From Margaritifera margaritifera (Eukaryota > Mollusca > Bivalvia > Unionida > Margaritiferidae): 64,000 bases of DNA. A program made the position numbers and the translations under genes. The stretch is taken from assembly GCA_029931535.1 (NCBI GenBank), contig JAQPZY010001692.1, positions 702,501 through 766,500 of the forward strand. Direction: 5' to 3'. The notes under the pieces are model-generated. The model did no database searches, had not been told where the DNA came from, and worked only from the letters and a program-made list of their open reading frames with translations. Each line of letters starts with the position of its first letter. Positions within the stretch are counted from its first letter, which is position 1. Below, piece after piece: positions 2,116 to 22,170 of this stretch.

Positions 2116-5100
2116 TCAAGAGGGGCGTTTCCTTTTTTTATACTTCTCCAAATCGGCGTGTCCGTAAGGTAAAGTGGTGTGATCTGGAAGTCTCACTCTT
2201 TTTTGGTACACGATTCGATACACTTTTTGAACAGGTCGAGTCACTATTTTATGATTTGGTAGGCGAACAATCTTGTGAGGTTCTAACGTGGCTACTTGAA
2301 AATCTTTCACTTGTCCAGACAGTAGAGCATTTTTTAAAACCTCAAAGTTCACGACTTGGTTTGTTCGATAGTTCAGAGTCAATCCTTTGACTTTACAGGA
2401 GGTGTGAAGTTGACCTTGAGGGTCTCGGTATCGGTACCCATAATTTTTAGGGCCACCGCTAGCAAAACTCAGGATGGTATCTTGAGGGTGCTCGTCTGTC
2501 CAGGCTCCTAAACGATCTCCTTGAATAGTAGGGTGAGGGTAACCGGGACGATGAATGTTAATGCAACTGTCAGTATCAAAATACAGAACACGATCTCCCA
2601 AGACTTCTAACGCTTCGTCATACAATTTCAAACGAGCATGAGCAGTCATGTAGGCGGCAATGACTACGTTACTAAACTTGTCAGGTTTGACAAACTTTGG
2701 TTCATCTTCAAAATTGACAATGATCAAATCCTCACGGACGATTTCGACGTGCTTGACTAGAATACTTTTGTCGTCCACCAGTTTAAAGTAACGATAAGGA
2801 TCGTCCACGTATTCCGTCTTGGGTAAGATCGTACGTTGAGCCATTTTTCCCCACAAGCAATTCAACATCACTTTGGCAAACGATCTTTTTCCTTCATTTT
2901 TTTCTACGTCTTCTAAAGTGATGCCTTCGATCTCACGGTATTCTTCTTTGAATCGAACTTGGTCTTCGGGAGTTTGACACCACGAAGGATAACCACTAGC
3001 TTCTTGTTTCAGTTTGAGAAATTGGTTCACGTACCTTGAGAAAATGCCTGGATGATTAGTAGCGTCGTCCATTTGGTATTGGGCGGTAGTTGGAAAGTGC
3101 CAGATTTCATACACGTTCAATAAACGGTATCCACGATCCAGAGCCCGAAACAATTCGGCACTGACCCACGTTCCTATCAACGACCGTTCTTCCTCCGTGT
3201 GGTGACAGGGATGATCTTGGTTGCACGTTTCGGCACACGTCCGACATAAAGGAAACATCAATTTTCCTTGACAATGGCAAGGTAAGATGGGATGAAACAA
3301 ATTTGTCGGAGGTAAGACTTTACATTTGATTAATCCTTCGTATTGACGAATGTGTTTCACGTCAATGTGTTCTGTTAAAATTTCAGGGTGTCTAGTAGGA
3401 AAACGAGAATATTTACACACCCAAGGATACAACGAACACACGTCGATGTATTTGATTTCTTCTCCTTGGGATTCATTCACGTCGTACAACAAACGAGTGG
3501 CATTGGTTCGTCCTCCAAATAAACTGTGGCGTGGATCTAAAGGTTCGATGTCGGCTGCGTCGTAACTTTGAGTGATGGTCTTAAATTCAGGATCGGTTTT
3601 CAAACGTCGATCGTATTCGTGTTCCCACATTTCTACCACTTCGTAACCTTGACTTTCTAACTGAAGTCGTCGTTGACAAGTCTGTTCGTATAACTGATCC
3701 ATGGTAGAATCTGAATAAGGGCTTTTCATGTCTCGATCAGGATAACAAGTAGGGCATCCGTGAAACAAACATCCCTGAAACTCGTACACTATGTGCGGGT
3801 TTTCTAAATCCCAACCATCCACGGTATAACCTCCAATCTTTTTTTCTCCGCCTCCGTTTCTAGCATGTTGTATCCATTTGTCTTCTTTTTGACATAAGTA
3901 ATGAAGCCAACGTAAAGCTTTGGCCGAATATTGACGACTGACAAAGAGTCCCGTATTGGAATCGATGATGGCAAGTTGGTTCTCGGGCATGAAATTTTGT
4001 CTGTAGACTAAGGAACAGGCTTTAGGTAAGGTGGCTGCATCTTTCAAAGGATCGACCTCCGCACTATCGAGAAATAACTCTCGAAATTTTCCACAACAAC
4101 GTCTTAAAATATCTACATCCGATCGACAATATTTGAGCATCTCTTCTTGAAAGTCAAAGGGATCGTTCTGGTGAGCACGGTACCAAGCGTGAAAAGCTTC
4201 TCGCTGTTCGGATCGCATTCCATCGGGGTCGTAATCACAAAGGTCAGGTAAATGAGGTAGGACGGCCTGTTGATTAGCTTCCGTGTTAAAGAAGTGAGGA
4301 AAGTAACCTTTAGCCATCGAATCTTTGAATTGAACTTGTCCTACTTTCATGTAGATGAGCTTTTTTCCGTTCATGGTGACTTCAGGACGTTCGGTTCCAT
4401 GGTTCAAATAATAATTAAGTAAAAACTGTCCATCGTACCCTGAAAAATTGTGAGCTATGACGGTAGCATACCGATGACAATCTCCGTAACGATGAATGTC
4501 TTCTTCGCTTCAACTGTCGTGGGTGGTAGGGTCTAAAACCCATTCAGCAAACTCAGACAAAGTATTCACTCCACGAAAGATTTTTTCACGTCCTCCTGGA
4601 ATACGACTACAATGAGGACAGTGAAAATGAATCGATTCTTGAATGCACTGATCACAAGCCCGATGTGCTACACAGAAATTGGGAATGTGAGTGCCTGTTT
4701 CTTGCATACATTCAAAATCAAAAAAGATGAAATCTACTTGTTTCTTGTTCTTCTTCTTCTTTATTTCTTTCTTCTCTGTCTTGTCAAACTTTTGAATAAA
4801 ACTTCGATGATCAAAATCGACGATCTGATGACAAATAGAACATTTTTTCTTGCCAGCACAAACGTGTCTCTTGGAGTTGTTGGTTCGAATCAGCTGTCCA
4901 CACGTAGAACACGATTGCAATAACTCACAAGCACATTTTTGTTGGTGTCCTTGGGCCTTGTGATGTTGTTGGTAACAAGTAGGACTGACAAAACGACGTC
5001 GACAGGTTTCACAATAAATGTGATGTTGTTGTAGATCAGGAAGGCATGGTGTGTTGGCTAAACAGCCCCGACATCTTGCTCCACAACCAATGTGTTGCTC

Positions 5101-6242
5101 CCGACTATTACACCCTTTGTGACATTTCTCACAGTAGTAAGAGTATCCCAAAATCCGGTAATACTGGTAATGGTATCAAAATGTTCTTGATGGTGATAAA
5201 GATGAATGTATTTTCCTTCAGGAAAATCAGGGCCTCGAAACAGTAGAGCTCCGCGAACTTCTTGAGGGTGAACTTTTAACGTATAATGAGGAGCCAAAAC
5301 ATCTTGAAGTTGCTGTATTTGAGAAATGCCACACACGGTCTCTTTAGGGATCCCTGCTTGTTTCAACAAGAGTTCTGCTTCTTTTCCTTGTTTGGGTTTG
5401 TTAGATCGTCGAATGTTATTCCAGGCTTTTTTCCATTCTTTGCTCTCATTCTTGTTAGCATAGGTACGGCCCACCACGATAGCTCGAGCTAAGCACATTG
5501 AATCTTCAGTATTGTTAATTTGGACGACACTATGTTTGGTAGTACGAAGATCGTCCACCAATAACGGTTTTCTGCTTCGACCACTTCCTCGAGGTGGAGA
5601 AACATGTGTCATGTAAAGGGTTGCCTTTCCATCGGTGATGGTAAATTTGTCATTGGATTGTTGTTCATGTTCTATTTTGGACATGACTTTGTCTGGCGTT
5701 AATTCTGCCGGGGTACTAAATTCAATCCAAACGGGACTCTTCAATTGGTCATGATGAATGGCCAGTCTCAAGCGATCCTCTTCTTTGGCTCCACATTGCC
5801 GCTTCAAGTTCTGTAAGACAGATTCCCACAAATTGCTAATGAACCGCGCCGCTTTCTCGGGAGGTACTTGGGACTTGAAGTCTTTGAAGTGTACTGTGTG
5901 AGTGTACGCCGTGGTCCTAAATTTTCGAGAAGTGATTTTTTGCGTCTCTCGAATCCTATAGTAATTTTCAGGAGCCACGGCGGCGGTAGTAGGACTTTCT
6001 TGGTCAGGGAATCTGGTGTTGGTAGTAGTGGTTTTGGTTTTGGTTTTGGGTGGTGGTGGTTTGGAAGTTGCTTGGGTTTCAGGTTGTTCACTCATTTCGT
6101 CTTCAAAGTCACTGGCATGGACTTGAGCCAGTAGTTCCTCTAAGGGTGTTTCAGGGGGCACGGAATACCTTCGTCGCCGTGGCTTCTTGGTTTGTTCTTG
6201 TTCTGGTTCTGATTTATCATGGTTTGGGCGTGATCTTTTCAT
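2116..6242 (-). pseudogene. Protein-primed family B DNA polymerase, element A
   Basis: About 1,375 codons in three open stretches: 6242-5058, 5151-4513 and 4509-2116. The start MKRSRPNHDK is basic. The N-terminal region has a lysine-arginine stretch and a cysteine/histidine-rich zinc region (about 4,840-5,145). Exonuclease motifs DFEC (near 4,710) and AHNFSGYDGQF (near 4,450) are followed by palm motifs DVCSLYP, LNCLWGKMAQR and YFDTDS (near 2,575), with a lysine-rich C-terminus. These identify a replicative family B polymerase of the Polinton/adintovirus protein-primed class. Two breaks are seen: a one-base frameshift in the four-base run at 5150-5153, and an in-frame TGA at 4510-4512, between the two exonuclease motifs. 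All catalytic motifs survive in frame otherwise, so inactivation looks recent. It is transcribed from the shared promoter at 6,243-6,377 and may share a transcript with the BIR and F-box-like genes. Confidence 0.9.
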
Positions 6243-6377: not shown

Positions 6378-6890
6378 ATGGAAGAGTCAAAAAGACAGAT
6401 TGCTTTTTTGGTGAGAGATTTACAGACAGTGATTCGAAAGTATACTACGTACAGTAAGAGTAAAGACTACTCCTCCTCTGTCAATAGAGATAAAAGTGAA
6501 GATACTTGTTACATCTGTCAAGAGAAAGGACATTGGGCACCAGATTGTCCCAAACGTCAACAGCAAAAGAGAGATAAAGGGAAAGATATCTGCTATCATT
6601 GTAAAGGACCAGGACATTGGTCTTCGGAATGCCCTCAGAAGAAAGAAGAAGAAGAGGAAGAGGAGAGGGAGGAAGTGGATTCAAAATCAACAAACCTAGA
6701 AGAAGAAGAAGAACATATCATCAAGAAAAGTAAGAAGAGAGTAAGAAGAATGGAAGACAGTGAGGAGAATGAAGAAGAAGAAGAAGAAGAAAAGGAAAAC
6801 AGGATTCCTATGAAGAAGAAACACAAGAGAGACAGTGAGAAGGAAACTCCAGTGTTTAGATTGAAGAAGGACAAGCATTACAGAAAGTGA
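6378..6890 (+). CDS. CCHC zinc-knuckle protein with acidic tail
   Basis: Intact 170 aa protein. Two CX2CX4HX4C zinc knuckles are visible: CYICQEKGHWAPDC (about residues 42-55) and CYHCKGPGHWSSEC (about 72-85). A long glutamate-rich tract (about residues 88-140) is broken by lysine-arginine patches, and the tail is strongly basic (KKKHKRDS and after). CCHC knuckles bind single-stranded RNA or DNA, and the aromatic after GH is typical. The acidic stretch could contact basic proteins such as histones or the viral packaging proteins, but this is a guess. The gene has its own TATA box about 65 bases upstream and is divergent from the polymerase. The 3' end shows no histone-type stem-loop, unlike the genes to its right. 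It is not a Gag: no capsid-like part precedes the knuckles. Confidence 0.75.
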   Translation: MEESKRQIAFLVRDLQTVIRKYTTYSKSKDYSSSVNRDKSEDTCYICQEKGHWAPDCPKRQQQKRDKGKDICYHCKGPGHWSSECPQKKEEEEEEEREEVDSKSTNLEEEEEHIIKKSKKRVRRMEDSEENEEEEEEEKENRIPMKKKHKRDSEKETPVFRLKKDKHYRK

Positions 6891-7117
6891 ACTTTGTTTT
6901 CTTGTGTGTTTTTTTTTGGTGTTATATGTTATATTGCTGAATTATTTTGTAAAAAAAAATTGGATGAATACACCAGACTGAAGAGTAAAAAAAGTAAGTG
7001 GTTTTGTGTTATTTTGTTTTAGAGTAGAAATGCACGCACGCACGCACTCACACTTTTACCATGGTGGGATTTTTTAAAGTTTTAACTTGATTTTTTTTTG
7101 GCAATTTGATTTCTTTT
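6891..7117. other. Non-coding spacer with short simple repeats
   Basis: No gene seen. It holds T-rich and A-rich runs and a (CACG)n-type microsatellite around 7,030-7,047. The 3' end of the zinc-knuckle transcript must lie here, but no perfect AATAAA signal was recognised. Confidence 0.5.
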
Positions 7118-7150
7118 CTAGAAATCTGGTGGTCCTTAGAAGGACCGTTG
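7118..7150 (-). terminator. Histone-type 3' stem-loop for minus-strand unit
   Basis: On the minus strand: CCCAAC, then a 6-bp stem GGTCCT, loop TCTA, AGGACC (7146 down to 7131), then ACC and a purine-rich AGAAAAGAAA box about 15 bases further on. It starts 44 bases after the stop of the Q/E-rich gene. Stem length, four-base loop, AAC and ACC flanks and purine box all match the metazoan replication-dependent histone 3' signal. The purine box is the weakest of the three copies. Confidence 0.7.
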
Positions 7151-7190
7151 GGTTGTTTTTGTTTTTTTTTTGGTTTCAAAACAAAAACTT

Positions 7191-7664
7191 TCAAATTAAC
7201 TTCAAATGCCGTAGTCCTTTACCACGGCCTAATCCATATCCTGTTAATGCTGCTGCTACTGATGGTGTTTTCATTATGGTGGTAGTCACTGGTGGTGGCG
7301 TTGGTGGTGGTGGCATCTCACTAACACTGGAAGGCTTAGAAGAAGAATGTTGTTTAGCCCGTGATGGCCTTTTCCGTTTAGGTGGTTGATGAGTTAAAGA
7401 ATACTTATAGACATTGGTCATCCATTTTAACTCATATAATATCTCTTCTAACAGAATTACAGTTCTTTCTTGAAGACTGATGCTTTCCTTTCCTGTTTCC
7501 TTCTTCTCCTCCTCTTGTAACTGCTGCTGCTGCTGCTGCTGTCTGATTTCTTCTTCTTCACTTTGTTTTCTTCTCTCTTCTTCTTCTTTCTGTTGTTGTT
7601 GAAGAAGAAGAAACATTTCTTCCTCTTCCCGTTGCTTTTTTACAAAATTTTCCATCTCTTCCAT
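7191..7664 (-). CDS. Q/E-rich coiled-coil protein with basic Gly tail
   Basis: Intact 157 aa protein of unknown function. Residues 1-58 are a glutamine/glutamate-rich coiled coil (runs of QQQQ and EEEE, with CAG/GAA-type trinucleotide repeats in the DNA). Residues about 65-88 form a hydrophobic helix, followed by a PPKRKRPSRAK nuclear-localisation-like patch (about 94-104), a serine/proline linker, and a glycine-basic end, YGLGRGKGLRHLKLI. It starts nine bases after the stop of the 58 aa acidic gene, so both probably come from one transcript driven by the promoter at 7,851-8,083. That transcript would end at the histone-type stem-loop at 7,131-7,146. The basic tail suggests DNA or virion-core binding; this is speculative. 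Confidence 0.65.
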   Translation of the reverse strand: MEEMENFVKKQREEEEMFLLLQQQQKEEEERRKQSEEEEIRQQQQQQQLQEEEKKETGKESISLQERTVILLEEILYELKWMTNVYKYSLTHQPPKRKRPSRAKQHSSSKPSSVSEMPPPPTPPPVTTTIMKTPSVAAALTGYGLGRGKGLRHLKLI

Positions 7665-7673
7665 TTGTCTTTT

Positions 7674-7850
7674 TTAAAATTCATCCACCATTGGTACAGT
7701 AGTAGCAGTAGTAGTAGTATTGTCAAACTCTTGATTTAGTAAATCTAAATCAAAGTCTTCCGGCCGGAAGTTCAATAATGCCGCAGCATTCATTATCGTT
7801 GCAGGATCACTCCAATACATTGATGTAGTACTTGTCTTTCCAGTCTCCAT
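7674..7850 (-). CDS. 58 aa acidic small protein (activation-domain-like)
   Basis: Short ORF with ATG at 7850 and TAA at 7674-7676. The sequence begins METGKTSTTSMYWSDP; the middle is PEDFDLDLLNQEFDN; the end is a threonine-rich segment. The alternating aspartate, phenylalanine and leucine core is the pattern of acidic transcription-activation domains, so a small viral transactivator is possible. It has no DNA-binding domain of its own. A minus-strand TATA box lies about 50 bases upstream (7899-7903). The stop is nine A-rich bases before the ATG of the Q/E-rich gene, repeating the spacing between polymerase and BIR 2. Coding status rests on start, stop, promoter and this spacing. Confidence 0.55.
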   Translation of the reverse strand: METGKTSTTSMYWSDPATIMNAAALLNFRPEDFDLDLLNQEFDNTTTTATTVPMVDEF

Positions 7851-8083
7851 GAAGGCTGTCGAAAAAAGTAATAAACCCCCTACGAACGCTACGATATCTT
7901 TATACCCGAGATGACGTCACACCCCCGCTCTCTTCCCATTGGAAGAAAACCCGACCGACTTGTAACGCGTGTTTGGATTGGTAGTTGATTTCGATCCATT
8001 TCAATCCGATCGTAAGGTATATATTCAACCGCTGGTTTCATAAAACTTCACCGGTTTTCTCCAAGACCACTCCTAAAAAAATC
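7851..8083. promoter_or_regulatory. Divergent promoter with CRE, CCAAT and TATA elements
   Basis: Between two outward-facing starts (7850 minus, 8084 plus). Elements seen: minus-strand TATAA (7899-7903), a full palindromic CRE TGACGTCA (7912-7919), two ATTGG inverted CCAAT boxes (7938-7942 and 7977-7981) and a plus-strand TATATATT (8018-8025). Divergent CCAAT/TATA control is also the layout of paired histone genes. With histone-type 3' ends on both flanking units, S-phase-linked expression is a reasonable inference. Confidence 0.6.
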
Positions 8084-8314
8084 ATGTGGGTTAGTGTGGA
8101 CTCCTCCAACATTGTTTCAGGAATGCTGTTTAATCCAGCATTCCTTATGTATGTAAAAGCTTCATGGGCTACCACAAAAATTACAGACACAGCTACATGG
8201 CATAGACAGACTTATGTGGAGAGACAAGGCTGTCTAAAGAGGGTTTTGTTGTATGGGCCCGAAGTCCGAAGAAGTTTAAGAAAAAGAAAACCCTCTAGGA
8301 GATGCTCATGTTAA
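8084..8314 (+). CDS. 76 aa basic-tailed protein of unknown function
   Basis: The frame is open from 7985, but the first ATG placed sensibly downstream of the TATA box (8018-8025) is at 8084, preceded by AAAATC. The 76 aa product starts MWVSVDSSNIVSGML, has a mixed hydrophobic middle and ends in an arginine/lysine/serine/cysteine-rich tail (RRSLRKRKPSRRCSC). No family recognised, and it is not a histone fold. A nuclear or nucleic-acid-binding role is suggested only by the tail. It is followed by an (AAC)n tract and then by a complete histone-type stem-loop and purine box 43 bases after the stop. It diverges from the 58 aa acidic gene. Confidence 0.55.
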   Translation: MWVSVDSSNIVSGMLFNPAFLMYVKASWATTKITDTATWHRQTYVERQGCLKRVLLYGPEVRRSLRKRKPSRRCSC

Positions 8315-8316
<2 letters not shown>

Positions 8317-8350
<34 letters not shown>

Positions 8351-8351
8351 A
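8317..8351 (+). repeat. (AAC)n microsatellite
   Basis: About eleven AAC units in the 3' untranslated region between the stop of the 76 aa gene and its stem-loop. Confidence 0.9.
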
Positions 8352-8352
8352 G

Positions 8353-8392
8353 AAACGGTCCTTTTTAGGACCACCCATTTTTCAAGAAAAGA
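8353..8392 (+). terminator. Histone-type 3' stem-loop plus purine box
   Basis: AAAC, then stem GGTCCT (8357-8362), loop TTTT, AGGACC (8367-8372), then ACCCA and, 11 bases after the stem, CAAGAAAAGA (8383-8392). In metazoan histone genes the stem-loop binds SLBP and the CAAGAAAGA-like element pairs with U7 snRNA to direct cleavage without polyadenylation. All parts are at the expected spacing. The stem carries a U-A pair at its third position where histone genes usually have a C-G pair. Confidence 0.8.
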
Positions 8393-8628
8393 TTAATTTT
8401 TCCAATATTGCCTATATAAGTGTGTGTTTATATATGTTTGTAATGTTTTTGTTTTTTTTGTCATAGTCTACCCCTTCTCATACAAAAAAAACCCCTTCTC
8501 CCATGTATGTTTTTATGTAGTGTGTGTTTTTTTTGGAAAAAAAGGGGGATGTTTTCCATCACGTCCGCGCTTCTCGCATATAAAGCGGTGCCTTCCACAG
8601 TTGCGCCATTCACACTTCAACATCTAAA
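8393..8628 (+). promoter_or_regulatory. Leader and TATA promoter of the 197 aa gene
   Basis: T-rich spacer followed by GCATATAAAG (TATAAA at 8579-8584), 45 bases before the ATG. A TCACACT initiator-like sequence lies near 8,610. The upstream 180 bases contain runs of T and A and no ORF of note. Confidence 0.6.
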
Positions 8629-9222
8629 ATGACAACCATTGAAAACCTACAGGAAGCCTGGGATGTGATGGTGGGAGTGGAGTCTCTGGTAGAAAGGATA
8701 GAGTGTTGTTGGAGATATCCAACCACTCTATCTTTTGTCTCAAACCAAGTAGCAGCCATTAAGAATGCCAGGAGTTTGATCCAACAAGTCATAGTGGAGG
8801 AAGCTATGAAGGCCACCTCGGAACAACAACCCTGTCGAGTAGGGCTTCTAAAGAAAGCCCTGGACTTAGTGGAAGGGGTGGAGAATTTTCTTAAGAAAGT
8901 CTCAGAAGATTTGTGGCTCTATCCACTACCAAGTGCAGCCAAACGGGAAGCCATAGCCCTACTGACAGCAAAGATTTTAGTGAAAGAAATTATGGAAAAG
9001 GAGGTGGCCAAAATTAAAAAAATTTGGGCAGAGGAAAGAATGGAAAGAATGGAAAAGAAGAAGAAACAAGAGTTTCATCGCCTGAATTTGTTTTGGATGA
9101 AAATCCAGGACAAGTTCAGGCAAATGGGAGATCCAAACTGGCTACCAGAGAAGAAGAAGAACAACAAAAAAAAATTTCACATCCCAGGTTTCCTCACTAA
9201 ATGTTGGAGAGGAAATAAATAA
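8629..9222 (+). CDS. 197 aa helical protein with internal duplication
   Basis: Intact ORF with ATG 45 bases below a TATA box. Two homologous alpha-helical repeats are visible: about residues 8-61 (EAWDVMVGVESLVERI and onward) and about 75-128 (KALDLVEGVENFLKKV and onward). They share an A-D-V-GVE-L start, a tyrosine-proline pair near the middle and an alanine-rich last helix. The remaining third is lysine-rich (KIKKIW, EKKKKQE, EKKKNNKKKK) with tryptophans, suggesting nucleic-acid or chromatin binding. No family recognised. The stop overlaps AATAAATAAA, a possible polyadenylation signal. A full histone-type stem-loop with CAAGAAAGA follows 27 bases later, so two alternative 3' ends could exist. 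Confidence 0.65.
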   Translation: MTTIENLQEAWDVMVGVESLVERIECCWRYPTTLSFVSNQVAAIKNARSLIQQVIVEEAMKATSEQQPCRVGLLKKALDLVEGVENFLKKVSEDLWLYPLPSAAKREAIALLTAKILVKEIMEKEVAKIKKIWAEERMERMEKKKKQEFHRLNLFWMKIQDKFRQMGDPNWLPEKKKNNKKKFHIPGFLTKCWRGNK

Positions 9223-9245
9223 AAGCTCTTCCTACCAAACAAAAC

Positions 9246-9283
9246 CAACGGTCCTTATCAGGACCACCCTTTTTCAAGAAAGA
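9246..9283 (+). terminator. Histone-type 3' stem-loop plus purine box
   Basis: CCAAC, stem GGTCCT (9250-9255), loop TATC, AGGACC (9260-9265), ACCC, then CAAGAAAGA (9275-9283) ten bases beyond the stem. The purine box is a perfect match to the histone downstream element. The sequence after it (TTAATTC) resembles the copy at 8,392, so the whole 3' block was probably duplicated along with promoter or gene. Confidence 0.85.
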
Positions 9284-9300: not shown

Positions 9301-9406
9301 CCGTAATGTAGTAACGAAGACAACGTCTACTACTATCAAAAAACACCTCCCCACCCTCCACCCCTTTTTGATGGTAGTAGACGTTGTCTTCGTTACTACA
9401 TTACGG
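9301..9406. repeat. 42-bp near-perfect inverted repeat (hairpin)
   Basis: Arms 9301-9342 and 9365-9406 are complementary at 41 of 42 positions, with a 22-base C-rich loop. Extruded hairpins of this size are typical of viral termini or replication origins, or arise by fold-back replication error. It sits at the junction of elements A and B. Function not established. Confidence 0.9.
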
Positions 9407-9423: not shown

Positions 9424-9537
9424 CCATGTTAAACTCCCGTAATACGCTCAAGTGCCCCCCTCCATGTTAAACTCCCGTAATACGCTCAAGTACCCCCCTC
9501 CATGTTAAACTCCCGTAATACGCTCAAGTGCCCCCTT
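9424..9537. repeat. Three tandem 38-bp repeats
   Basis: Units start at 9424, 9462 and 9500 (CCATGTTAAACTCCCGTAAT and so on), each ending in AAGT(A/G) and a C run, almost identical. They share CTCCCGTAAT with the outer end of the adjacent hairpin. They could be iterons of an origin or a terminal repeat of element A. A partial further unit follows to about 9,560. Confidence 0.9.
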
Positions 9538-9680
9538 TTACGCTCAACACCCCCCGTCTACTACTAACGATAAGTGCTCTAATGGAATTTGGGAGTGCTT
9601 GATGATGTTTAACTGGTTCGTTTTTTTGTGTTGCTGAAAAATCAATTACATCCATGCGAATCTATCTTTAATAGATTATT

Positions 9681-10176
9681 ATGAGTTTATATTGTGTTCG
9701 TTGTAGGAAGTTTACAAACACAAGTAAGCTGAAAACAATAATGACAAAGAATTCAAGGCGAGCATTAACAGGTACATGCACGGTATGTGGTACAGTCAAA
9801 TATAAGTTTATAAAACGTAATTTGCAAAAACGCGGTGGTGATATTACCGCGATGCTCAGTAAATTACCAGGTTGGGGGAAGTATCCTGGTGAGAAACACC
9901 TTCCTGGATATAATTATTGCGGTCCTGGCACACGACTTGATATTAGACTTGATGAAAAAAATCAACCACGACCAGGTGAATTTCCGATAAATGCAATTGA
10001 TCAAGCGTGTCACATTCATGACGTTGCTTATAAAAATCAAGATCTACAACAACGTCACATCGCAGACGTCAATTTAATTCACGCGTTAAAAAACATAAAA
10101 AAACAAAACCATGAAAGAGTCACTGGCTAACTGGTTGATAAGATCAGCAATGAAAGGTAAATTGGTGTTCGAGTAG
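9681..10176 (+). pseudogene. Zinc-ribbon / phospholipase A2-like virion protein
   Basis: The open frame runs 9681-10130 (149 aa). Residues 5-40 have a CX2C ... CX2C zinc ribbon (YCVRC, CTVCG). Residues about 69-130 resemble the PLA2 domain of parvovirus VP1 and adintovirus proteins: a calcium loop YCGPGTRLD and the catalytic pair in DQACHIHDVAY. PLA2 activity would help a virion leave the endosome. The C-terminus appears to shift frame in the A-rich stretch near 10,090-10,110: the alternative frame from ATG 10111 gives a short basic-hydrophobic helix (MKESLANWLI and after) ending at 10174-10176, as expected for the family. It lies just upstream of the integrase, eight bases away if that end is right. 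Confidence 0.75.
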
Positions 10177-10183
10177 ATCTATA

Positions 10184-11137
10184 ATGGAATCAATTTATTA
10201 TAGTCCAAGAGGATACTGGAAGGGTATAGCAGCAATAGCAGCAATAAGCAAACTCGCAAGTGCAGCAGGTGTTACAAATGGCGTTGCCGCAGATTGGTTG
10301 TCCAAACAAGCAGTATGGCAAATTTATTTACCTGGACCTAAAAAAATTCAGTACGGATGATTTAATGTTAGTACTCCAAATGAAGTTCATCAGGCGGATA
10401 TTTTGTTTTTACCTCATGACGGCACATACAAATACGCGTTAACGGTCGTTGATGTTGCGAGCAGATACAAAGAAGCAGAGCCGTTATCAACTAAAACAGC
10501 AGCTGAAGTTATAAAAACATTCAAAAAGATTTACTCGCGTGGACCTTTACGATGGCCACAATTGTTACAAGTTGACCCAGGAAAAGAATTTCATGGTGTA
10601 GTATCATCGACGATGAAGCAACATAATGTCAAAATTAGACGCAGCCACGTCGCAATACATCGTGATCAGGCAATTGTAGAACGATGTAATCGAACGCTTG
10701 CTGAGCGACTGTTTGGATATCAATATGCAAAGGAATTACTTTCTACTGATACTCGGTCGCGTGAATGGGTTGCAAGATTACCAGATGTGATAGCCGCGCT
10801 AAACAATGAAGTCACTCGTGGAATTGCTATGAAACCCGTCAATGCAGTCACAAAAAAGTTTATCGATCCTCTTCTACAAAAACCACTACGTAACGTCAAG
10901 TTACTCGGTAACGTCACGGTCAGATATTTATATGAACCTGGTGAACTTGAAGGTGGTAAAAAAAGAGCAACCGATCCTATATGGAGTGTAACCACACATA
11001 GAATTTCCAACGTGGTAAGGTCAACAGGTAGGCCTGCAATCTACAAACTAGAAGGAGCTCCTAATCGTGGATTTGTCCGTGAACAATTACTTGTAATTCC
11101 TGAAGATACACAATTACCACCAGCGTGGATTCGCTGA
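10184..11137 (+). pseudogene. Retroviral-type (DDE) integrase of element B
   Basis: About 317 codons from ATG 10184, interrupted by one in-frame TGA at 10358-10360. The N-terminal part (YYSPRGYWKG, about residues 5-14) and NEVHQADILFLPHDG just after the stop are hallmarks of Polinton/adintovirus integrases. The catalytic triad is visible: D in TVVDVASR, D in LQVDPGKEFHG and E in AIVERCNRTL, spaced as in rve-family enzymes. A C-terminal chromo/SH3-like part follows (about residues 210-317). The enzyme would have inserted the element and set its target duplication. Its 3' end overlaps the antisense frame of the HNH remnant, so the plus and minus blocks converge here. Confidence 0.9.
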
Positions 11138-11608
11138 CCTCTGTTACATTCAAGGCATGTCAACATTACATTTCCACGTATATGGCCTAAAGTATTATTA
11201 ATTCGATCCACGGTAAATTGTCGTGAGTCACCATGAAAATATTGCCAGAGCATTACTGCGTTACATTTACGACAATGATTGTTTTGCTGCTGTTTTAACA
11301 TCATGACATCGTTCATATTAAGATCAAATTTGCGTCTCGTTGTTTCATTTCTCTGGCAAGTCAATGAGTCGGAGTTAACACTACTATATCTGAGTAATTT
11401 TGAATAATTCAATAACACGTGTTGTTTTACCAGAACCACAAGGGCCATTAAGATATACAGTTTTTTGTCTGGATATGGGATCATGAACTGATGGTGCCGT
11501 TGAAGTCAAATATTCATTTACATTCTTGTAATATTTCGCGTCAGGTTTATAATCTGCGTATTTCGAATAATGGTGGAACTGTTCGTTTTTATCCTCCATG
11601 AGCCCCAA
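11041..11608 (-). pseudogene. Helicase Walker-A and HNH nuclease remnants (polymerase C-terminus)
   Basis: Two pieces in different frames. Stretch 11608-11384 carries a Walker A loop, YLNGPCGSGKTTRVIELF, and ends at a stop. Stretch 11484-11041 carries an HNH nuclease: HCRKCNAVMLW, then FTVDRINNTLGHIRGNV and CLECNRG, with paired cysteines and the central histidine. In a subset of Polinton-like elements a superfamily-1-type helicase and an HNH domain follow the polymerase in one long protein. The order, strand and flanking residues here fit that, with nearly the whole helicase core deleted between Walker A and HNH. The last about 30 codons are antisense to the integrase and may not be genuine. 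Alternative: separate small genes. Confidence 0.65.
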
Positions 11609-11679
11609 GCTTCACCACATCTACATACATCTACAAGTAGATGTGTACATGCATGTTCATGAACAATCGCACACATAAG

Positions 11680-13829
11680 TTATACTTTGTCTCTGAACTG
11701 CGAGCTAATATAAAATGAATCCGTTGCAACTCTGACAGCATCTTTGGAAAATTGAGTTATCATCGATAACAGGTTTATTGAAACATAAGCTAACATTGAA
11801 GATCTCAGATGAGTAAATTGTGGAGAATTACCATCATTGTAATAAACAATTGTACCTAGTTCAGATCCGTCTGGTAGTCTTGCTGTGTCTGTGGATATAA
11901 ATGTTCCTTTGTTTATCGTGTCATTAGTTATAAAATCTAGTTCAGCAGGATCAATGATCAATCGTGTACAACATCGTTTACCACCAGATGCGGCACCGTG
12001 TGTAAATTTACCGATAATCTTTCGTCCAATATCTTTAGCAAATGAATTTTCTTTTTTGTCTACATCCACATGTGTATCCGCGAGCGGATGAGGCAACCAA
12101 ATACCTTTTTGTGGTTTGTATGAAATTATTGCTTCGGTGACTGTCAGGTGTATCAATATCTGCGCATCGAGCATGTATCTCAGTAACACTATGGGGGCCC
12201 AACCACGTTCAACAAAATGACTACCAAACCAATTAGGGACAATCGGATGAACGTTTGTGTCAAATTCAAATGATTTGATCAGAGTAAATCCAGTCAAATC
12301 AATGTCAGGTAATTCGTCGTTTATAGCAACTCTGGTCATTTCATGTGTTGGATGACCAAATCGTGAGAAATAACAATTACATGAACCACGTCCAAGAAAA
12401 CTTCCAGGATAATATGCAACCATGTCTACGGAAATAACGTTGTTGTGATCATACATTGTGTTCCACAGCCCCCCCCCCCCCCATGCCTATATTCGATACA
12501 AGAATGCTGAACATCCGAGAGAAACTCTGTCGGGGTTGGATGCCATGAGTTCTTCTGTTGAGCAAAATGAGCAACGATAGATGGTACAGTAAAACATCTA
12601 ACCAGTAATTCGTTAACAAATATGTTTTCAGTGAAATATATTTCATCAATGTTGTCAGAGACAGTGTCATCGACGAATCTGTTTTCAACAGATTCATTCA
12701 CGTATTTTAATGCAACTTGTTTCATCTCAGTGTGTAGATGTTGTGTACGATAAATTACTCCAGATGGTAATACAAACTGATCAAATTGCTGATTTTCATC
12801 ACTTTGAAATAACCATACTGAGATAGGATCGGTCTTACTTATATCATAAATGTTTTCCATGATATCACCGTTGTAAATTTGGACACTTCTGCTCCGGGGG
12901 AACTTTTTTATTCCGTCGGTCCATGCATGCTTGTTGTGATAAATTATAATTATTGGAGCCAGTCCATTTGATCTGTATTTACCTGAATCATATAAAATCT
13001 CATCAGTGATCGCGAAATATTTTATTGGAAATTTTAGTTTCTTTTCTAACACGGCAATATCGGATATCCGTGCTCCTTCATCAATAAGACCCAAGTTCCA
13101 TTTGTTTATTGTCTCTAATCGCTTATCTGTTAATCTTGCTCCTCGTAGCGTGTTCTTAAAATGCTCTATTACTCGCTGGGCTGCACAATTTATGATAATA
13201 TCACGTGAATCTACCAAAGGTAGATTAAGGTATATCTTTGATTCTGCGACACGCATTTGCGCCAGCGCATTAATATCGGGTTTGTTTAACTTATAAATTC
13301 CATAAATAACTGACGTCGCTGGATATGACCTAACATAGTACAATCTGTCTATGCCTGTCAATGTTCCTGGTCTGGTATGTTTGTCTAGCGTGACAATACT
13401 ACCATTGAAACTGCTTGCAGTTTTCGAAGATTTACGAACAGGATCGCGTTTATCCAGGATAATCAAAACATCATCACCATATTCATCAACACGATTGACT
13501 ATAAATTTAATTTTAATGTAATATTGTGAATCCCTGCTTGATAGACCGTCGTTGACAGATCTACTGTGGACCGTTTTACGGTCCGTTGACGAAATATAGT
13601 TAATGATTGTCGCTGCTCGTTTGTCATCAATCGTTAAATCGATCGCGACCGAGTTATACTCGGTTGACGGTAGATTCACTCGAAATGTTGACCAAACATA
13701 TGCCGCGCCGTCCTCGAGAAACTGATTTTTTGCCTCGGTGATGAAATTATGTAATCGTTGAAATATTTCGTCGATTGATTCATCAATGGACGATTGATTA
13801 GGATCTGGATCGATCTTTAAAAGATTCAA
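11680..13829 (-). pseudogene. Protein-primed family B DNA polymerase, element B
   Basis: Two frames joined across a 14-base C run (12469-12482). The upstream frame (13829-12426) holds the N-terminal and exonuclease half; the downstream frame (12456-11680) has palm motifs: DMVAYYPGSF (motif A, aspartate then YPGS), GRKIIGKFTHG (motif B) and VATDSFY (motif C). The lineage is far from the element A polymerase: a different motif A and no cysteine-rich N-terminal region. No ATG opens the upstream frame; it is readable back to about 13,885, so the start is lost or lies across another shift. The frame stops soon after motif C, and about 70 bases later the Walker-A/HNH remnants begin. It replicated the element, with a terminal protein as primer in related systems. 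Confidence 0.85.
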
Positions 13830-13982
13830 TAACCTATTTATCGACCTGGATCTTTCTTCGGGGGTTCCATCGAGATCTTGTTTCCAACATTATATTTTAA
13901 ACGAATATATATCTAATTAGAAAAAAAATTAAAATATAATATAATGATATAGAGAGCGAAAAATAACTGTAAATGGTTGATG

Positions 13983-14262
13983 ATGAGATCAGCAATTCCA
14001 TGTGGAAAACCCTGTTACTATGAGTTTTGTGGTCATCACATGCAAAGTGTGCGTCGAGGAAGTCGAGGACCAAAACCTTGCATAAAATGTCACGTTGGTG
14101 TACGAAGCCAAACTGAGCTTTGTGTCAAATGCGGGGGGGGGGGGGGGGGGATATAGAGATTTAAAGCTATACTTTAGCAAAAAATCTCAGTGTGTTTCTT
14201 TAGACTCCGCGAAGGATTATCTTGACGCGATCAACACCGGAGTAATCAAATCACGATCCTGA
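13983..14262 (+). pseudogene. Small Cys-rich zinc protein split by a G18 run
   Basis: ATG 13983 opens a frame with three cysteine pairs (CGKPC, CIKC, CVKC) plus histidines, likely two small zinc-binding modules. It then runs into 18 guanines (14133-14150) and stops at 14154-14156. A second frame resumes immediately after the run (YRDLKLYFSKKSQC and on) and ends at TGA 14260-14262, giving a sensible C-terminus. The run has therefore expanded or been misread inside a glycine codon stretch. It is the only plus-strand gene within the minus-strand block. A regulatory or DNA-binding role is plausible; family not recognised. Confidence 0.55.
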
Positions 14263-14306
14263 CAGAGCATACTCTGTTCATCACAATCGAGTTATACTCG
14301 ATCACG

Positions 14307-14756
14307 TCAACTGAAAATAATCAACGTTAGTATCTCAATGAAAGATTTTACTTGACTGAATTTTATCATACAAACAGCATCATTGTTAACCCATTTGTAC
14401 GGATTTGACGGTATAAAATCCGAGAGTGGTTTATAAAAAACATATATATCCGACGATAGTGTAGTTTTCGTAGATCGTTGTTGAATACGAAAAATATCAG
14501 GAATTGTTATTTCTTTTACCACACTTTTAGTGCTGCCTACACTGCTGAAATAATCTTTTGTATTATATTTAGGTTTATACCTGGTATCAAGTTCGTAATA
14601 ATCCTCATTACCCTCCTCGTCCTCCAACACATGATAATAATAATGTGCTTTGACAATCAGTGGATTTGTACACAAATCTGGATTTGCACACAAAATTCTA
14701 TTACGGTATTTTTTATGCACGTGATAAAAAACTTCGATTTTAAATTCTCTGTCCAT
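14307..14756 (-). CDS. Hypothetical protein of element B, 149 aa
   Basis: Intact ORF from ATG 14756. Starts MDREFKIEVFYHVHKKYRNR; tyrosine/acidic-rich (EDEEGNEDYYELD in the middle) with a hydrophobic end. No motif recognised. It lies between the Cys-rich gene and the penton-like gene. Being uninterrupted amid broken neighbours, it may have been under selection or simply be short enough to escape. Confidence 0.5.
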   Translation of the reverse strand: MDREFKIEVFYHVHKKYRNRILCANPDLCTNPLIVKAHYYYHVLEDEEGNEDYYELDTRYKPKYNTKDYFSSVGSTKSVVKEITIPDIFRIQQRSTKTTLSSDIYVFYKPLSDFIPSNPYKWVNNDAVCMIKFSQVKSFIEILTLIIFS

Positions 14757-14762
14757 TATAAT

Positions 14763-14934
14763 CGAAACGAATATTTAATTGATATTAAGGACGAATCTGG
14801 AATCGGTTAAAATCGATTTGGATCGTTAATCGTCCTATGTCAACGGTAATTGATCGCAGATCAATCGGGTCTATCACGGCAACTGTCCATCATCACAATC
14901 GCGTTATACTCGATCAAGGACGGTCTCGATCAAT
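14763..14934. other. Spacer rich in GATC/ATCG motifs
   Basis: No ORF of note. Many short CGAT/ATCG and GATC words occur, with several small inverted copies. The same words recur in other spacers of element B (14,270-14,300). Confidence 0.4.
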
Positions 14935-15207
14935 CTACGATCGATCGCGGACATACAAACTCATCGTTAGTTCTTCCCCGCGTGTGTCCAACAAATGTCC
15001 ATCTTGATCCACCAATAAAAATTTCATTCGATACAAATGCGGGTTGTGACATTGCAGATAAACCGGGTTGACCGGTACTGACACAATCAACGAGCCAGGA
15101 GGTACTTCCGGAGAGAAGCTATAAAGAATATACCCACGCGACGCTGTTTGAGATATCCTGGGATTTGAATTATAACTTCCGTCGATGGCATCACACACAA
15201 GATTCAC
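14935..15207 (-). pseudogene. Penton-like virion protein, C-terminal piece
   Basis: About 90 codons ending VDQDGHLLDTRGEELTMSLY. Segments CDAIDGSY, YSFSPEVPPG and RGEELTM are typical of the C-terminal strand of the penton/structural protein family seen in Polintons and adintoviruses. The matching N-terminal piece lies at 15,754-16,302 on the same strand, with about 500 bases of other coding-like sequence between. The start used is not a natural one: the frame shifts near 15,210. Role: vertex or minor capsid protein, by family resemblance. Confidence 0.6.
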
Positions 15208-15239
15208 ACACTGATCGTTGACGTAATATTGACTACACC

Positions 15240-15740
15240 CGGTGATACGTGTCGTCCAGATCCGTCCGCTGCGTTATTATGTCGAGAGTAAATGAATCAT
15301 ATATTTTTTTCCACGCGTCAACGATTTTCGGAAAGTATTCATTGATGACATTGTTGATATTGTTTTTCTTTCCATCGATATCAATCCAGGTCGGTGATCA
15401 CATGGTTTAGATGCTGTATCGTAGCAATAATTTTTTGCTGGTAATCGATAGATCTATGTATATATTCAGATTCATCTGCGTACTTTATGAATAAAACTGA
15501 TAGATCACTTAATTTCGACCTATACTCGCTATTCATTTCATTAATGAAATCTTCAATGGAAATAATGTCATCAGTATGCAAATCATCGAAATGAGGGGCA
15601 TCAGGAAACGTCAGATCCTCATTTATGAGTAACTTGTCACCGGAATCATTTAATCTTAAGTCTATGATCAGTGGAGCTTCCCATAACAACATTCTTCGGT
15701 AACCTGGTTTTTCTATAAACACATTGACGTTGTCATTGAC
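15240..15740 (-). pseudogene. Unknown acidic coding segment between penton pieces
   Basis: The main open frame is 15722-15381 (start MFIEKPGYRRMLLWEAPL). It also reads upstream of that ATG, to about 15,790, in the same frame, and a different frame continues below 15,381 (NVINEYFPKIVDAWKKI). The composition is acidic and helical, and two shifts at least are needed. No family recognised. It may be a domain inserted in the penton-like protein or a separate gene whose neighbours have merged. Confidence 0.4.
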
Positions 15741-15753
15741 AACGGTTTCATAA

Positions 15754-16302
15754 TCAGATCTCTGTGGTTGTCGTATCTGTATACCCCGGTCGTATTTCAG
15801 GCCATCCTAATACGGTTCTGATCGACGACTGATATATGTCAACGAAGTAATTTTCATCAGTGATTTCGATGACCGCTCCAAGTGTTGGTTCGTCCACGGT
15901 GATCTCAATTTTTGAATCTGTCCCTGTGATTGCTTTGATTCGCCGCTGAAATTCTTCGTTGATTTGTTCGATTTGATAACTTCCCGTGGGAATACTAACA
16001 ACATTCCAGTCTGGGTCATCAGTCCCCTCCCGGTTTTTATATGCGAATACCAGTGAATTATTGGCTGGCAATCCTCCAATTGGTTTTGATCTGATGTTTG
16101 GCCAACTGTACACTCGTAATTGTGCCATTGCAATCTCTAGTCGTCGTCCTGGGACCGCTATCGGACTAGGAAGAATAATATCAAATTCAGGCTTGGTTGA
16201 TGACGCTGATATCATCGAGGTTGTGCTCGGTGTTAACAATCGATTTGTTTCGATTAATGTATCGATGATAGTTTCAAGTTTGCTGACGACTCGATCATTC
16301 AT
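15754..16302 (-). CDS. Penton-like virion protein, N-terminal piece
   Basis: 182 aa ORF from ATG 16302. After a linker rich in serine and threonine it has FDIILPSPIAVPGRRLEIAM (about residues 40-59) and SIPTGSYQIEQINEEFQRRI (about 103-122), then DIYQSSIRTVLGW. The GSY-I-IN signature and the following LGW are recurrent in structural proteins of Polinton-like elements and occur in the strand-rich half of the penton-type jelly roll. The ORF ends in a threonine run, where the frame shifts into the next segment. Listed as CDS because it is open, but the full protein is broken. Confidence 0.6.
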   Translation of the reverse strand: MNDRVVSKLETIIDTLIETNRLLTPSTTSMISASSTKPEFDIILPSPIAVPGRRLEIAMAQLRVYSWPNIRSKPIGGLPANNSLVFAYKNREGTDDPDWNVVSIPTGSYQIEQINEEFQRRIKAITGTDSKIEITVDEPTLGAVIEITDENYFVDIYQSSIRTVLGWPEIRPGYTDTTTTEI

Positions 16303-16345
16303 TATAATACTTGGTCAGATTTGTATTCAAATTTGGTATTCAAAT

Positions 16346-16930
16346 TTAGTCTGATATTGTAAACAGTGAATCTGTTGTAAACAGATTTGTGTAAATGTTG
16401 CTGATCTCAGTAAATTCATCATCGGATATAACACCGTCGTTTAAACTCGCTGATATTAATTCGGATATTTTTGTGTATGCGTGTGCGTGGTTTGATAGCA
16501 TCTTTTCATACAAATGTAATTTAGTGGTCGCATACGTGGACAACCTCTTCATAATAATGTTAAATATACCAACATTACCTATGAAAACAATGACACCTAC
16601 TCCAATGATCAGTGATATAATATATGTGGCTTATAATGTACCAATTAGTGTCACTGTTCCAGTGGAGATGGCATTTACCACGTAAATAATATTATCAATG
16701 GTAATTATACGTCTCTGATATTTTTTTTGTTTGTTTTGATATTTTTCAACGAGATTTTTTAACGATTGCTGCCATGATCGCACCTGTTTATATCTGTATG
16801 ATTGAGTGATCGCACAGAGGCGTTGAAGATCATCAACATTTTCACACATTTTATTTATTCTGTCTCGGTTTAAATCACGTTGACCGTTCGTTGACGTTAT
16901 GCTGACGTGATAAATTCCAAATACCACCAA
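16346..16930 (-). pseudogene. Coiled-coil/hydrophobic virion-associated protein
   Basis: One frame from 16930 to 16346 with a single in-frame TAA at 16631-16633. The N-terminal half is coiled coil (KNLVEKYQNKQKKYQRR), followed by two hydrophobic stretches (VVNAISTGTVTLIG, then a glycine/valine/isoleucine segment after the stop). A C-terminal helix pair follows with ISELISASLNDGVISDDEF, a pattern seen next to fibre genes in related elements. Role probably structural, perhaps spike stalk or membrane contact; function not known. Confidence 0.55.
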
Positions 16931-17739
16931 TACGTAGCTGATGCTATTGTTGTATCTTCTGGATTCAATCTGAATAAAATATCTTCGTCTTTAGTGAACA
17001 CAATTGATATAGTTCCGGGAGAATCTACACTACCCCATGCATGTATCATAAATTTTACGTCAGAGATCACTGAGAACATGTACATGCCAGCGATTTTTGC
17101 ACGATGTATGATATTTTTTTTTATCTCTTTCCCATTTTAATGCTGATCCAGAATCTACCGTATATACACGATTCTTAATTTTGGTATCAACCTCAGCTAG
17201 AGTAATGGGAACGGCTCGCGGTTTTCCAAAAGAAATCCTCAGTGAGTTTATTTATGGTTCTACGAAACCCGGCAAACGTATCTACGTGAGTATTATAATC
17301 AGTTCGCAGCGCATCTACGTATTTTTTTGTTGCGGCGTTATCATCTGATTGGTTCTTTTAGAGAAACAATTTGATTTTCATTCATGTTGAGATCACCAGT
17401 CATTGTGTCGCCGGTTTTAACAACACGTTTGTTGATCTCTGAATCTATCTTTGATAGATTAAAAATTGATACGTTTGAGTCTTTGATTGCTCCGTTACTT
17501 GTGAACACAGGTATATTGTTTTCGACGGCATTGGCAACTCGCAGGACAATATCAGTCAACGGAATGTTACTTGTTGCTAACCGCGGTTGTTGATCTTGAA
17601 AAATAACAACTTCATTGGGATGGATCCCGTTGAGATCAACAAGTTCATCAAACTCATTCTTGGTTACGTATTTTGACAAATCCGTGGACATGTCAGTGAC
17701 ATGTTTAGATACACGAGGTCTTCCATAAATATCAACCAT
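16897..17739 (-). pseudogene. Fibre-like trimeric spike protein
   Basis: The first frame (17739-17341) has YVTKNEFDELVD, a beta-spiral-like middle and VKTGDTMTGDLNMNENQIVS, the GDLNMNxxxI shaft motif also found in phage and viral tail fibres. A one-base shift at about 17,345 leads into a frame with NAATKKYVDALRTDYNTHVD, the usual companion of that motif. A third frame (17085-16897) holds a beta-rich C-terminal part (IHAWGSVDSPGTISIVF) that would be the receptor-facing head. At least two frameshifts. The role in host-cell attachment is inferred from architecture only. Confidence 0.6.
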
Positions 17740-17769
17740 TTATTTTACTAGTGTGATCAACTTTCAAAT

Positions 17770-18214
17770 TCAGTTTGAATTTGGTTGATTTGTGTGAGAT
17801 TTAATTGTGTAATCATGCACGGCTTTAGGTAAATTTATCTTTGATAGATCCGCTGACCGTGATCTGTTTACAGATTCGCTAACATGTTTGAGTACAGCAA
17901 GTACTTCTGGTCCGCATATAGGTGGATCTGTTAGTGTTTGTGTTGGTAGCGTTGAATACCGCAGAACGCGCGGATAAATATATCTCAAAAATTCTATTGG
18001 TGGTGCCAACCCGTACGAATAAAAAAAAAACAACACTTAGTGGATTAATTGCATAAGCAACCCAATGCGTGCCTGCTCCAGAAGATTTATCGAGATTAAT
18101 AATACCAGTTTCAACGGATTTTGGTCTGGTAGGTAACTGATCTCGCATAAACACACCTCTAAATGATTTAATTTGTAGTTTTTGTGCAGCATCAATCAAG
18201 TCAAAATTAGACAT
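17770..18214 (-). pseudogene. Adenain-type cysteine protease (virion maturation)
   Basis: The start is best placed at the internal Met at 18214 (MSNFDLIDAAQKL), since earlier codons overlap the upstream gene end. Catalytic histidine in GTHWVAYAI; the frame then breaks in a ten-base T run (minus sense, about 18,018-18,027). The second frame gives SYGLAPPIEFLRYIYP and the catalytic cysteine in ICGPEVLAVL. Order His ... Asp/Ser ... Cys and spacing match the Ulp1/adenain family that processes capsid precursors in adenoviruses and Polintons. It lies between the fibre-like and minor capsid genes, as expected. Confidence 0.8.
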
Positions 18215-18264
18215 ATGCGTATTTACCTTTGAAACTGCAAGCAGTTTTCGTAGAATCAACCGCA

Positions 18265-18816
18265 TCATTGACGAGCCATTATTTGTCTTATAACCTGGTT
18301 TAGTAGTCTTAATCTTATGTGTGGAATTTTTCCTAGATACGGACCTGACCCCAGATAAGTTCCTGGTAGTCTCAGACCGTATCCCTTTTTTTTACCTAAT
18401 CGATTACGATTATGTATTCCACGTCCGGTTGCCTTTTTTAGTGCCAATCCGGCGGCGGTTCCGATGGCACCAAGTGCTGCTGCTTTTGCTACGGCAGGTA
18501 CTGCAGCTGCGATTAATCCTGGTATTGCCGCGAGAAGTGGAAATATACCACCGATTTTTAACATATCTTGGATCGCACTCGCGGAAAGATCAATTCGTAT
18601 ACGTGAATTTGATTTTTCAGCATCATTGAAATGTTTCATCTGACGTTCAGTCAATGATAGTTTGTTTGGACCCGATTGGCCATTGCTAATCTGCGTTGGT
18701 CTCAGTAATATCGCTGCTCCACATGAATTTTTTGCTGCCGATTGTAACTTTCGAATCTGACCAGGTGTCAAAGTAACATTAACATGATGGTAAGTTTTCG
18801 CAGTTTTATTTGTCAT
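18265..18816 (-). CDS. Minor capsid/core protein with hydrophobic segment
   Basis: Intact 183 aa ORF. N-terminal VNVTLTPGQIRKLQSAAKN, then LSLTERQMKHFNDAEKSNSR and an amphipathic helix, a long alanine/glycine-rich hydrophobic region (about residues 93-127, IPGLIAAAVPAVAKAAALGA), and a basic glycine-rich tail. This organisation is that of the Polinton/adintovirus protein compared with adenovirus pX or pVI. Such proteins bind DNA or disrupt membranes after protease cleavage. It lies directly downstream of the MCP gene and upstream of the protease. Confidence 0.65.
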   Translation of the reverse strand: MTNKTAKTYHHVNVTLTPGQIRKLQSAAKNSCGAAILLRPTQISNGQSGPNKLSLTERQMKHFNDAEKSNSRIRIDLSASAIQDMLKIGGIFPLLAAIPGLIAAAVPAVAKAAALGAIGTAAGLALKKATGRGIHNRNRLGKKKGYGLRLPGTYLGSGPYLGKIPHIRLRLLNQVIRQIMARQ

Positions 18817-18897
18817 TATACGATATTATATCATTCAATTAATCTACATTGTTAATCAACTAATCTACGAAAACTGCAGTTTGGGTAGATTGATTGG

Positions 18898-20355: not shown

Positions 20356-20363
20356 GTGTGGAT

Positions 20364-20843: not shown

Positions 20844-20974
20844 TATTCAATTGTTTTATAAACAATTGTTGATTGTACTTGTACAATTAGTGATAGATTT
20901 TGATAAATTCAATTGGATCTACCTGTGGTAGACTAATCGCTGTAGTAATCGTCAATAATTTCATCGATTAGTGT

Positions 20975-21886: not shown

Positions 21887-21937
21887 TATTAATAAAACGT
21901 CAGTTTCAATTTACCAGCAACGGTACCATTTTTTTTG

Positions 21938-22168: not shown

Positions 22169-22170
22169 TA

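Follow-up and report, generated by a model that had tools for sequence, protein, structure and literature searches.

Histone-type mRNA 3' ends behind small non-histone genes of a putative endogenised virus in a bivalve genome

Histone mRNA ends and related viral systems

The metazoan replication-dependent histone mRNA end (Rfam RF00032) combines a 6-bp stem and a 4-base loop with AAC before the stem, ACC(C)A after it and a purine box about 10 bases further on, and to our knowledge this SLBP/U7 type of 3' end is kept in animals for histone genes. We describe signals of the same build in a 64-kb stretch of the genome of the bivalve Margaritifera margaritifera (assembly GCA_029931535.1, contig JAQPZY010001692.1, positions 702,501 to 766,500 of the forward strand; hereafter the window), where they follow genes of a virus-like element that we call element A. 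The viral ends match the sampled H3 and H2B histone ends of the host, and two of the genes, G76 and G197, further share with metazoan histone genes a short leader with a TATA box. The element departs from the histone system in that its genes are viral and non-histone (by a Pfam scan of G157, G76 and G197) and in that its stems vary (GGTCCT, GGCTCT, GGCCCT and forms with G-U pairs), whereas the 10 sampled host ends all have GGCCCT.

With the adintoviruses and Polintons (Mavericks) element A shares a viral family B polymerase (PF03175) and the presence of many copies in the host genome. It differs from them in having several genes with histone-type 3' ends; no capsid gene of element A occurs in the part read, and it is by its polymerase that we liken it to them. 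Viral genes are also connected with histones in bracovirus, which reportedly carries an H4 histone gene, and in adomaviruses with their "Histoid" genes; there the protein is histone-like, whereas in element A only the mRNA end is. The main text of a preprint on the "Histoid" genes (PMC11071296) uses "stem-loop" 0 times and "histone" twice, both times of histone-like proteins. Searches of open PMC papers on the histone stem-loop or SLBP together with viruses (subscription papers lie outside them) turned up no account of viral non-histone genes with 3' ends of the histone type. The signal is the known host signal; the kind of gene that carries it is new. From the sequence evidence set out below, it is highly probable that element A represents a mollusc virus of adintovirus/Polinton-like type that has become endogenised in many copies, and that at least five of its small non-histone genes are read out via the host SLBP/U7 pathway.

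Three histone-type ends in the window

The three ends in the window lie behind G157 (7191..7664, minus strand), which has lost its 5' part because the frame is broken (by a stop immediately upstream of 7664, as judged from the list of open reading frames (ORFs), the other copies and their alignment), and behind two ORFs on the plus strand, G76 (8084..8314; 76 amino acids with a basic C-terminus) and G197 (8629..9222; 197 amino acids). At distances of 44, 42 and 27 bases from the respective stops stand the stem-loops SL1 (GGTCCT TCTA AGGACC; 7131..7146, minus), SL2 (GGTCCT TTTT AGGACC; 8357..8372, plus) and SL3 (GGTCCT TATC AGGACC; 9250..9265, plus). Read from the letters, a purine box follows each of them: CTAGAAAAGA at 7112..7121 (minus), CAAGAAAAGA at 8383..8392 (plus) and CAAGAAAGA at 9275..9283 (plus). 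Beyond the box a TTGCC motif occurs on the SL1 side (7100..7104, minus) and on the SL2 side (8408..8412, plus). The three ends thus share the consensus AAC-GGTCCT-TNTN-AGGACC-ACC plus a purine box. An earlier note on this DNA, made from its letters, had pointed out three histone-type ends with these loops and flanking AAC and ACC, at 27 to 44 bases after the stops, with purine boxes at 8383 and 9275; its observation is confirmed throughout, and the box behind SL1 adds a third that it had not listed.

All three stem-loops have the stem GGYYCU/AGRRCC with a 4-base loop carrying U at positions 1 and 3, and folding predicts the 6-bp stem for each 27-base piece. Rfam calls each of them Histone3 (gathering score 34): SL2 passes with 38.9 bits, and SL1 (also picked up by the stem scan) and SL3 fall just under the cut-off with 33.7 and 32.2 bits, at E-values of 2.8e-6 and 1e-5 in a search of positions 1-30000 of the window against all 4227 Rfam families. 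The 22-base pattern AACGGTCCTTNTNAGGACCACC has three matches in the window with 0 mismatches, no extra match there at up to 3 mismatches, and none in 100 dinucleotide shuffles even at 3 mismatches; on the strength of the shuffles we reject a chance origin of the stem-loops.

The signal across copies in the host genome

A Histone3 search of the 2.45-Gb host genome scored 75 matches among 508,685 first-look candidates, and all 75 places were fetched, as 73 loci (L007-L079). Element genes precede 74 of the 75 (G197 39, G76 28, G92 6, G129 1), and one match is without a family; G92 and G129 are two further stem-loop-bearing families that are absent from the window (in L015-L079; for example L015:4936-5325, minus, and L009:338-616, plus). 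Host histone ends, at 40.6 bits, are not among the scored matches though they outscore some of these, so the lack of histones in this set is uninformative on the host. Scanning the 73 loci and the window for the stem (GG..CT/AG..CC, at least 5 of 6 pairs, a loop starting with T and an A after the stem) yielded 147 stem-loops (127 different ones when 70 bases are compared), which divide into 47 behind G197, 43 behind G76, 23 behind G157, 19 behind G92, 11 behind G129 and four without a family. The signal had first been noticed on three genes; these three stand, and the number of families carrying it rises to five.

Behind intact ORFs the signal lies 12-74 bases past the stop. The loops are mostly TTTC (95) or TTTA (41); TATC occurs 4 times, TATA 3 times, and TTAA, TTTG, TTTT and TCTA once apiece. 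All but one of the 147 have T at loop position 3, which the scan had left free. A purine-rich downstream element is recognisable as AGAAA within 44 bases of the stem in 141/147, and the box mostly begins 10 bases past the stem. Its commonest form is CAAGAAAAGA behind four of the families (30/43 G76, 40/47 G197, 14/19 G92 and 8/11 G129 stems) and CTAGAAAAGA behind G157 (20/23).

A gene-anchored check, in which family members were located in the 73 loci by tblastn, gave 149 testable ends: 128 with a perfect stem-loop, 21 with an imperfect one, scoring 15 or more out of 18 points, and none without. Another 15 G157 matches were too near the edge of a locus to be scored. Among the 75 ends that lie outside the Rfam picks the counts are 65, 10 and 0. 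The element's own zinc-knuckle (CCHC) gene, our internal negative control, has a perfect-type sense-strand stem-loop within about 260 bases in 0/21 copies. The signal thus belongs to a particular subset of the element's genes. The imperfect ends, like a class of stems with a C-A mismatch (GGCCCT/AGAGCC), may belong to decayed copies.

These distributions bear on the idea that the hairpin serves another step, such as viral DNA replication, packaging or the stopping of transcription, and only resembles a histone end. A hairpin in a compact viral genome, adjoining another palindrome, would suit such a role; we nevertheless consider it extremely unlikely, in view of the 143 of 147 stem-loops that follow a gene from one of the five families in sense orientation, the near-constant T at loop position 3, the usual 10-base spacing of the purine box and the lack of a stem-loop at the CCHC gene. 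The same 143 stem-loops led us to reject a hairpin unrelated to transcripts.

Conservation agrees with a histone-type end. In alignments of 10 to 43 thinned rows per family, the columns of stem, loop, tail and box are conserved at 0.88-1.0, those of the spacer at 0.73-0.95 and those of the outer flanks at 0.38-0.73; the values for the purine box are independent of the scan rule. Covariation was assessed on 57 distinct 27-base rows. Pair 3 of the stem occurs as CG (32), UG (18) and UA (7), and pair 4 as CG (43), UG (6), UA (3) or unpaired (5). Cells with double changes number 10 vs 4.2 in shuffles, and the covariation score is 0.176 vs 0.136, with 0/500 shuffles as high in either case, the shuffles ignoring relatedness; controls in which the stem was slid pair much more poorly. 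The earlier note had named a lack of conserved stem-loops and purine boxes in relatives, or of compensatory changes, as observations that would speak against the signal; what we find in the other copies is a stem-loop at every testable end, a conserved purine box and covariation at two stem pairs.

The genes carrying the signal

The proteins of G157, G76 and G197 match no Pfam family, histones included, which bears out the initial statement that they are not histones, and we reject the possibility that they are decayed histone genes on the same ground. G157 is intact elsewhere in the host genome, at about 195-209 amino acids; its protein is Glu/Gln-rich, with KRKRPSRAK and a conserved GLGRGKGL near the C-terminus. 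G197 is predicted to be helical by a low-confidence model; AlphaFold, run on single sequences, models both G197 and G76 poorly (pLDDT 59 and 56, respectively). G197 alone as query matched no protein relative and no solved structure. With the G76 alignment as query, two proteins from environmental sequences matched at about 60% identity, and a short one from the freshwater mussel Potamilus streckersoni at 42%. Relatives P0122 and P0123 come from an environmental contig and from P. streckersoni; the reading frame of P0122 continues into KPFSGPLTLLEN and, read at the protein level, could encode part of a stem-loop and the box CTAGAAAA. The TATA boxes lie 66 bases upstream of the ATG for G76 and 50 bases for G197.

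An IxCxE motif occurs in 5/7 distinct intact G129 ORFs, in a context fitting the Rb-pocket pattern of ELM. G92 has a C-terminal CxAC motif in 9/9 ORFs and a KEN sequence in 5/9. The IxCxE and KEN sequences are short motifs, and a link to the cell cycle is only suggested by them. Median ratios of non-synonymous to synonymous change (dN/dS) are 0.15 for G76 (58 pairs), 0.22 for G197 (52), 0.29 for G157 (53), 0.25 for G92 (36) and 0.24 for G129 (17), as computed by NG86 from near-full-length intact ORFs over pairs with dS of 0.1-1.5, taking the first 120 pairs at most per family. Hence, the proteins of all five families were under purifying selection.

Host histone ends and processing machinery

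Histone genes of the host were located with PF00125 (150 matches scored of 646), and 10 of their ends were sampled, six H3 and four H2B, typed by our reading of the last residues. A stem-loop is present at 10/10, scoring 34.2-40.6 bits, with AAC-GGCCCT/AGGGCC and the loop TTTT in H3 and TTTC in H2B. A AGAAAAGA or TGAAAAGA box occurs at 8/10. The H3 ends have CAAGAAAAGA in 3/6 and CTCATGAAAAGA or CTCCTGAAAAGA in the other three, and the H2B ends have CTAGAAAAGA in 2/4 and variants in the other two; both viral box types are therefore found on host genes, one on H3 and one on H2B. Among the viral copies, the H3-like box stands behind most G76, G197, G92 and G129 copies and the H2B-like box behind most G157 copies. 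The likeness extends to TTGCC, which lies 34-35 bases past the stem in 4/4 host H2B ends (L081, L083, L085, L089) and within 75 bases past it in 137/147 viral ends, there mostly at 34-37 (viral and H2B ends together mostly at 34-39), the next 75 bases having it in 4/147. Host H3 ends have TGCC or GGCC at 33 in 5/6. TTGCC is possibly a new piece of the mollusc histone signal. The identification of the viral ends as the metazoan histone 3' signal, as first proposed, is thus supported both by the sampled host ends, which carry the same stem-loop, and by the Rfam Histone3 matches.

The very close likeness of host and viral signals, TTGCC included, makes capture from a host histone gene a plausible origin. 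It would also fit the notion that host histone 3' ends were captured along with host DNA and are carried without function, or that the genes are decayed histones. This we regard as very unlikely: the three window proteins have no Pfam histone match, the signal has been kept by five families, the double changes preserve pairing, the stem types GGTCCT and GGCTCT are absent from the 10 sampled host ends, the dN/dS values are low (0.15-0.29), and the stem-loops do not decay as fast as their flanks.

The SLBP RNA-binding domain is present in the host (PF15247, two matches of 64.3 and 38.8 bits, contig C413). A host U7 small nuclear RNA (snRNA) whose 5' end contains a TCTTTTCTTG- or TCTTTTCTAG-like sequence, with GGCAA before it, would account for both purine boxes and for TTGCC.

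Proposed use of the host pathway

From the known histone pathway, we would expect the host SLBP to bind the viral loop and the U7 small nuclear ribonucleoprotein to pair with the purine box, whereupon the transcript would be cut after ACCCA, giving an mRNA without poly(A). The viral mRNAs would then follow histone rules, being made and used in S phase and destroyed once DNA synthesis stops. The viral gene set would thereby be limited to cells that are copying their DNA, or to the period in which viral DNA is copied. The interpretation offered in the earlier note, of a virus taking over S-phase, poly(A)-independent mRNA processing for a subset of its genes, is supported by the sequence evidence. 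We put forward more tentatively, as a possibility somewhat short of probable, that these genes form an S-phase regulon with feed-forward, in which at least five genes are read out via host SLBP/U7 with H3-like and H2B-like boxes and G129, through its IxCxE motif, pushes the cell into S phase.

Such an S-phase regulon would, if true, be the first natural case of a set of genes other than histones using the histone mRNA pathway. Viral use of the signal on several non-histone genes would, if true, show that the SLBP/U7 pathway can be taken over, would provide a natural test of the 3' end's own contribution to cell-cycle control, would supply structure-function work with dozens of variants of the signal that evolution has produced, and would hint at how a small integrated virus couples its gene expression to DNA synthesis in the host.

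Counter-evidence and polyadenylation signals

Several points weigh against a read-out of these genes via SLBP/U7. Its support comes from DNA sequence. The loci were selected for the presence of a stem-loop, and the gene-anchored check used those same loci. Of the 149 gene ends, 21 are imperfect. All copies come from one host genome, queries with the element's polymerase (PolB) against IMG/VR and GTDB contigs having found no relatives elsewhere. The 98.5% of paired cells in the covariation set, like the conservation of the stem, follows in part from the construction of the scan rule (5/6 pairs, fixed bases), and two whole-structure measures, the 2 pairs that show double changes and the 4 pair types, lie within the shuffle range, 365/500 being as high. 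A host U7 snRNA was not found with RF00066, a result that is uninformative, as 65 of 776,085 candidates were scored and no control matched.

The remaining points concern poly(A) signals. Two AATAAA hexamers lie across the stop of the window copy of G197, where AATAAATAAA overlaps the stop; AATAAA or ATTAAA also stands between the last codons and the stem in 8/19 intact G197 copies, and up to 150 bases past the stem in 2/21 G76 copies (0/46 in the others). Histone genes are known to have back-up poly(A) sites. It could be, then, that these genes, and G197 in particular, actually receive poly(A) tails, the stem-loop being a relic or acting as a secondary signal under some conditions. Between last codons and stem, however, no such signal occurs in any of 48 intact copies from the remaining families (G76 0/21, G157 0/11, G92 0/9, G129 0/7), and stem, loop, tail and purine box form a conserved island in all five families, G197 included; we judge this reading to be quite unlikely. 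Neither AATAAA nor ATTAAA occurs within 250 bases past the stop of G76 or G157 in the window. Histone-type processing of all five families is the reading that we prefer, and G197 may have a second, poly(A) route, because of the signals before the stem in its window copy and in the 8/19.

Element A and its surroundings

The family B DNA polymerase gene of element A (2116..6242, minus) is broken: a stop and a change of frame separate ORF 2116-4374 from ORF 5058-6242, as seen from PF03175 and from tblastn of relatives; a stem-loop scan of the window finds no histone stem-loop behind it. By similarity, this polymerase is of the adintovirus/Polinton-like family B type. It has 2603 protein relatives at an E-value of 0.001; among the 120 matches listed, the best (on a 2.3-kb JGI contig) is 72% identical and the remainder 40-52%, from bivalves, echinoderms, a coral, insects and metagenomes among others, and the closest named viral relative among them is PolB-C of the Rhodactis coral adintovirus (44%). 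Six IMG/VR contigs that match the stem patterns (4 + 2) are taken as chance, since none reaches the Histone3 gathering score. Adjoining the polymerase gene are an ORF with a BIR (inhibitor of apoptosis) domain (1144-1671, minus; Pfam) and a second BIR ORF identified by eye (1709-1993, minus). The CCHC gene (6378..6890, plus; Pfam zf-CCHC) converges on G157.

Behind G197, near the element's end, a repeat search and the fetched copies delimit a palindrome with 42-base arms, 98% complementary (9301..9406, unstranded), followed by three repeats spaced by 38 bases (9424-9552). The palindrome is also present behind G197 in many other copies and is hence part of element A, perhaps its end. Similarity to the other copies, by tblastx, stops near 9567, past the palindrome and the repeats.

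Within the window, genes of the integrase, capsid and protease types occur to the right of element A (9681-21886), the left part of the element extending past the window. This region encodes phospholipase/DUF5679, adenain and double-jelly-roll proteins (Pfam) and an integrase-like ORF (by eye), some of them apparently broken. Tblastx finds nothing in the 73 fetched loci that matches positions 9601-23000, and the genes in 9681-21886 therefore look like a second, Polinton/adintovirus-like element. Further to the right, Rfam scores a hairpin at 23546-23620 and 26158-26228 as mir-761, far below the cut-off of that family; the hairpin forms part of a two-armed inverted repeat, so it is probably a transposon end.

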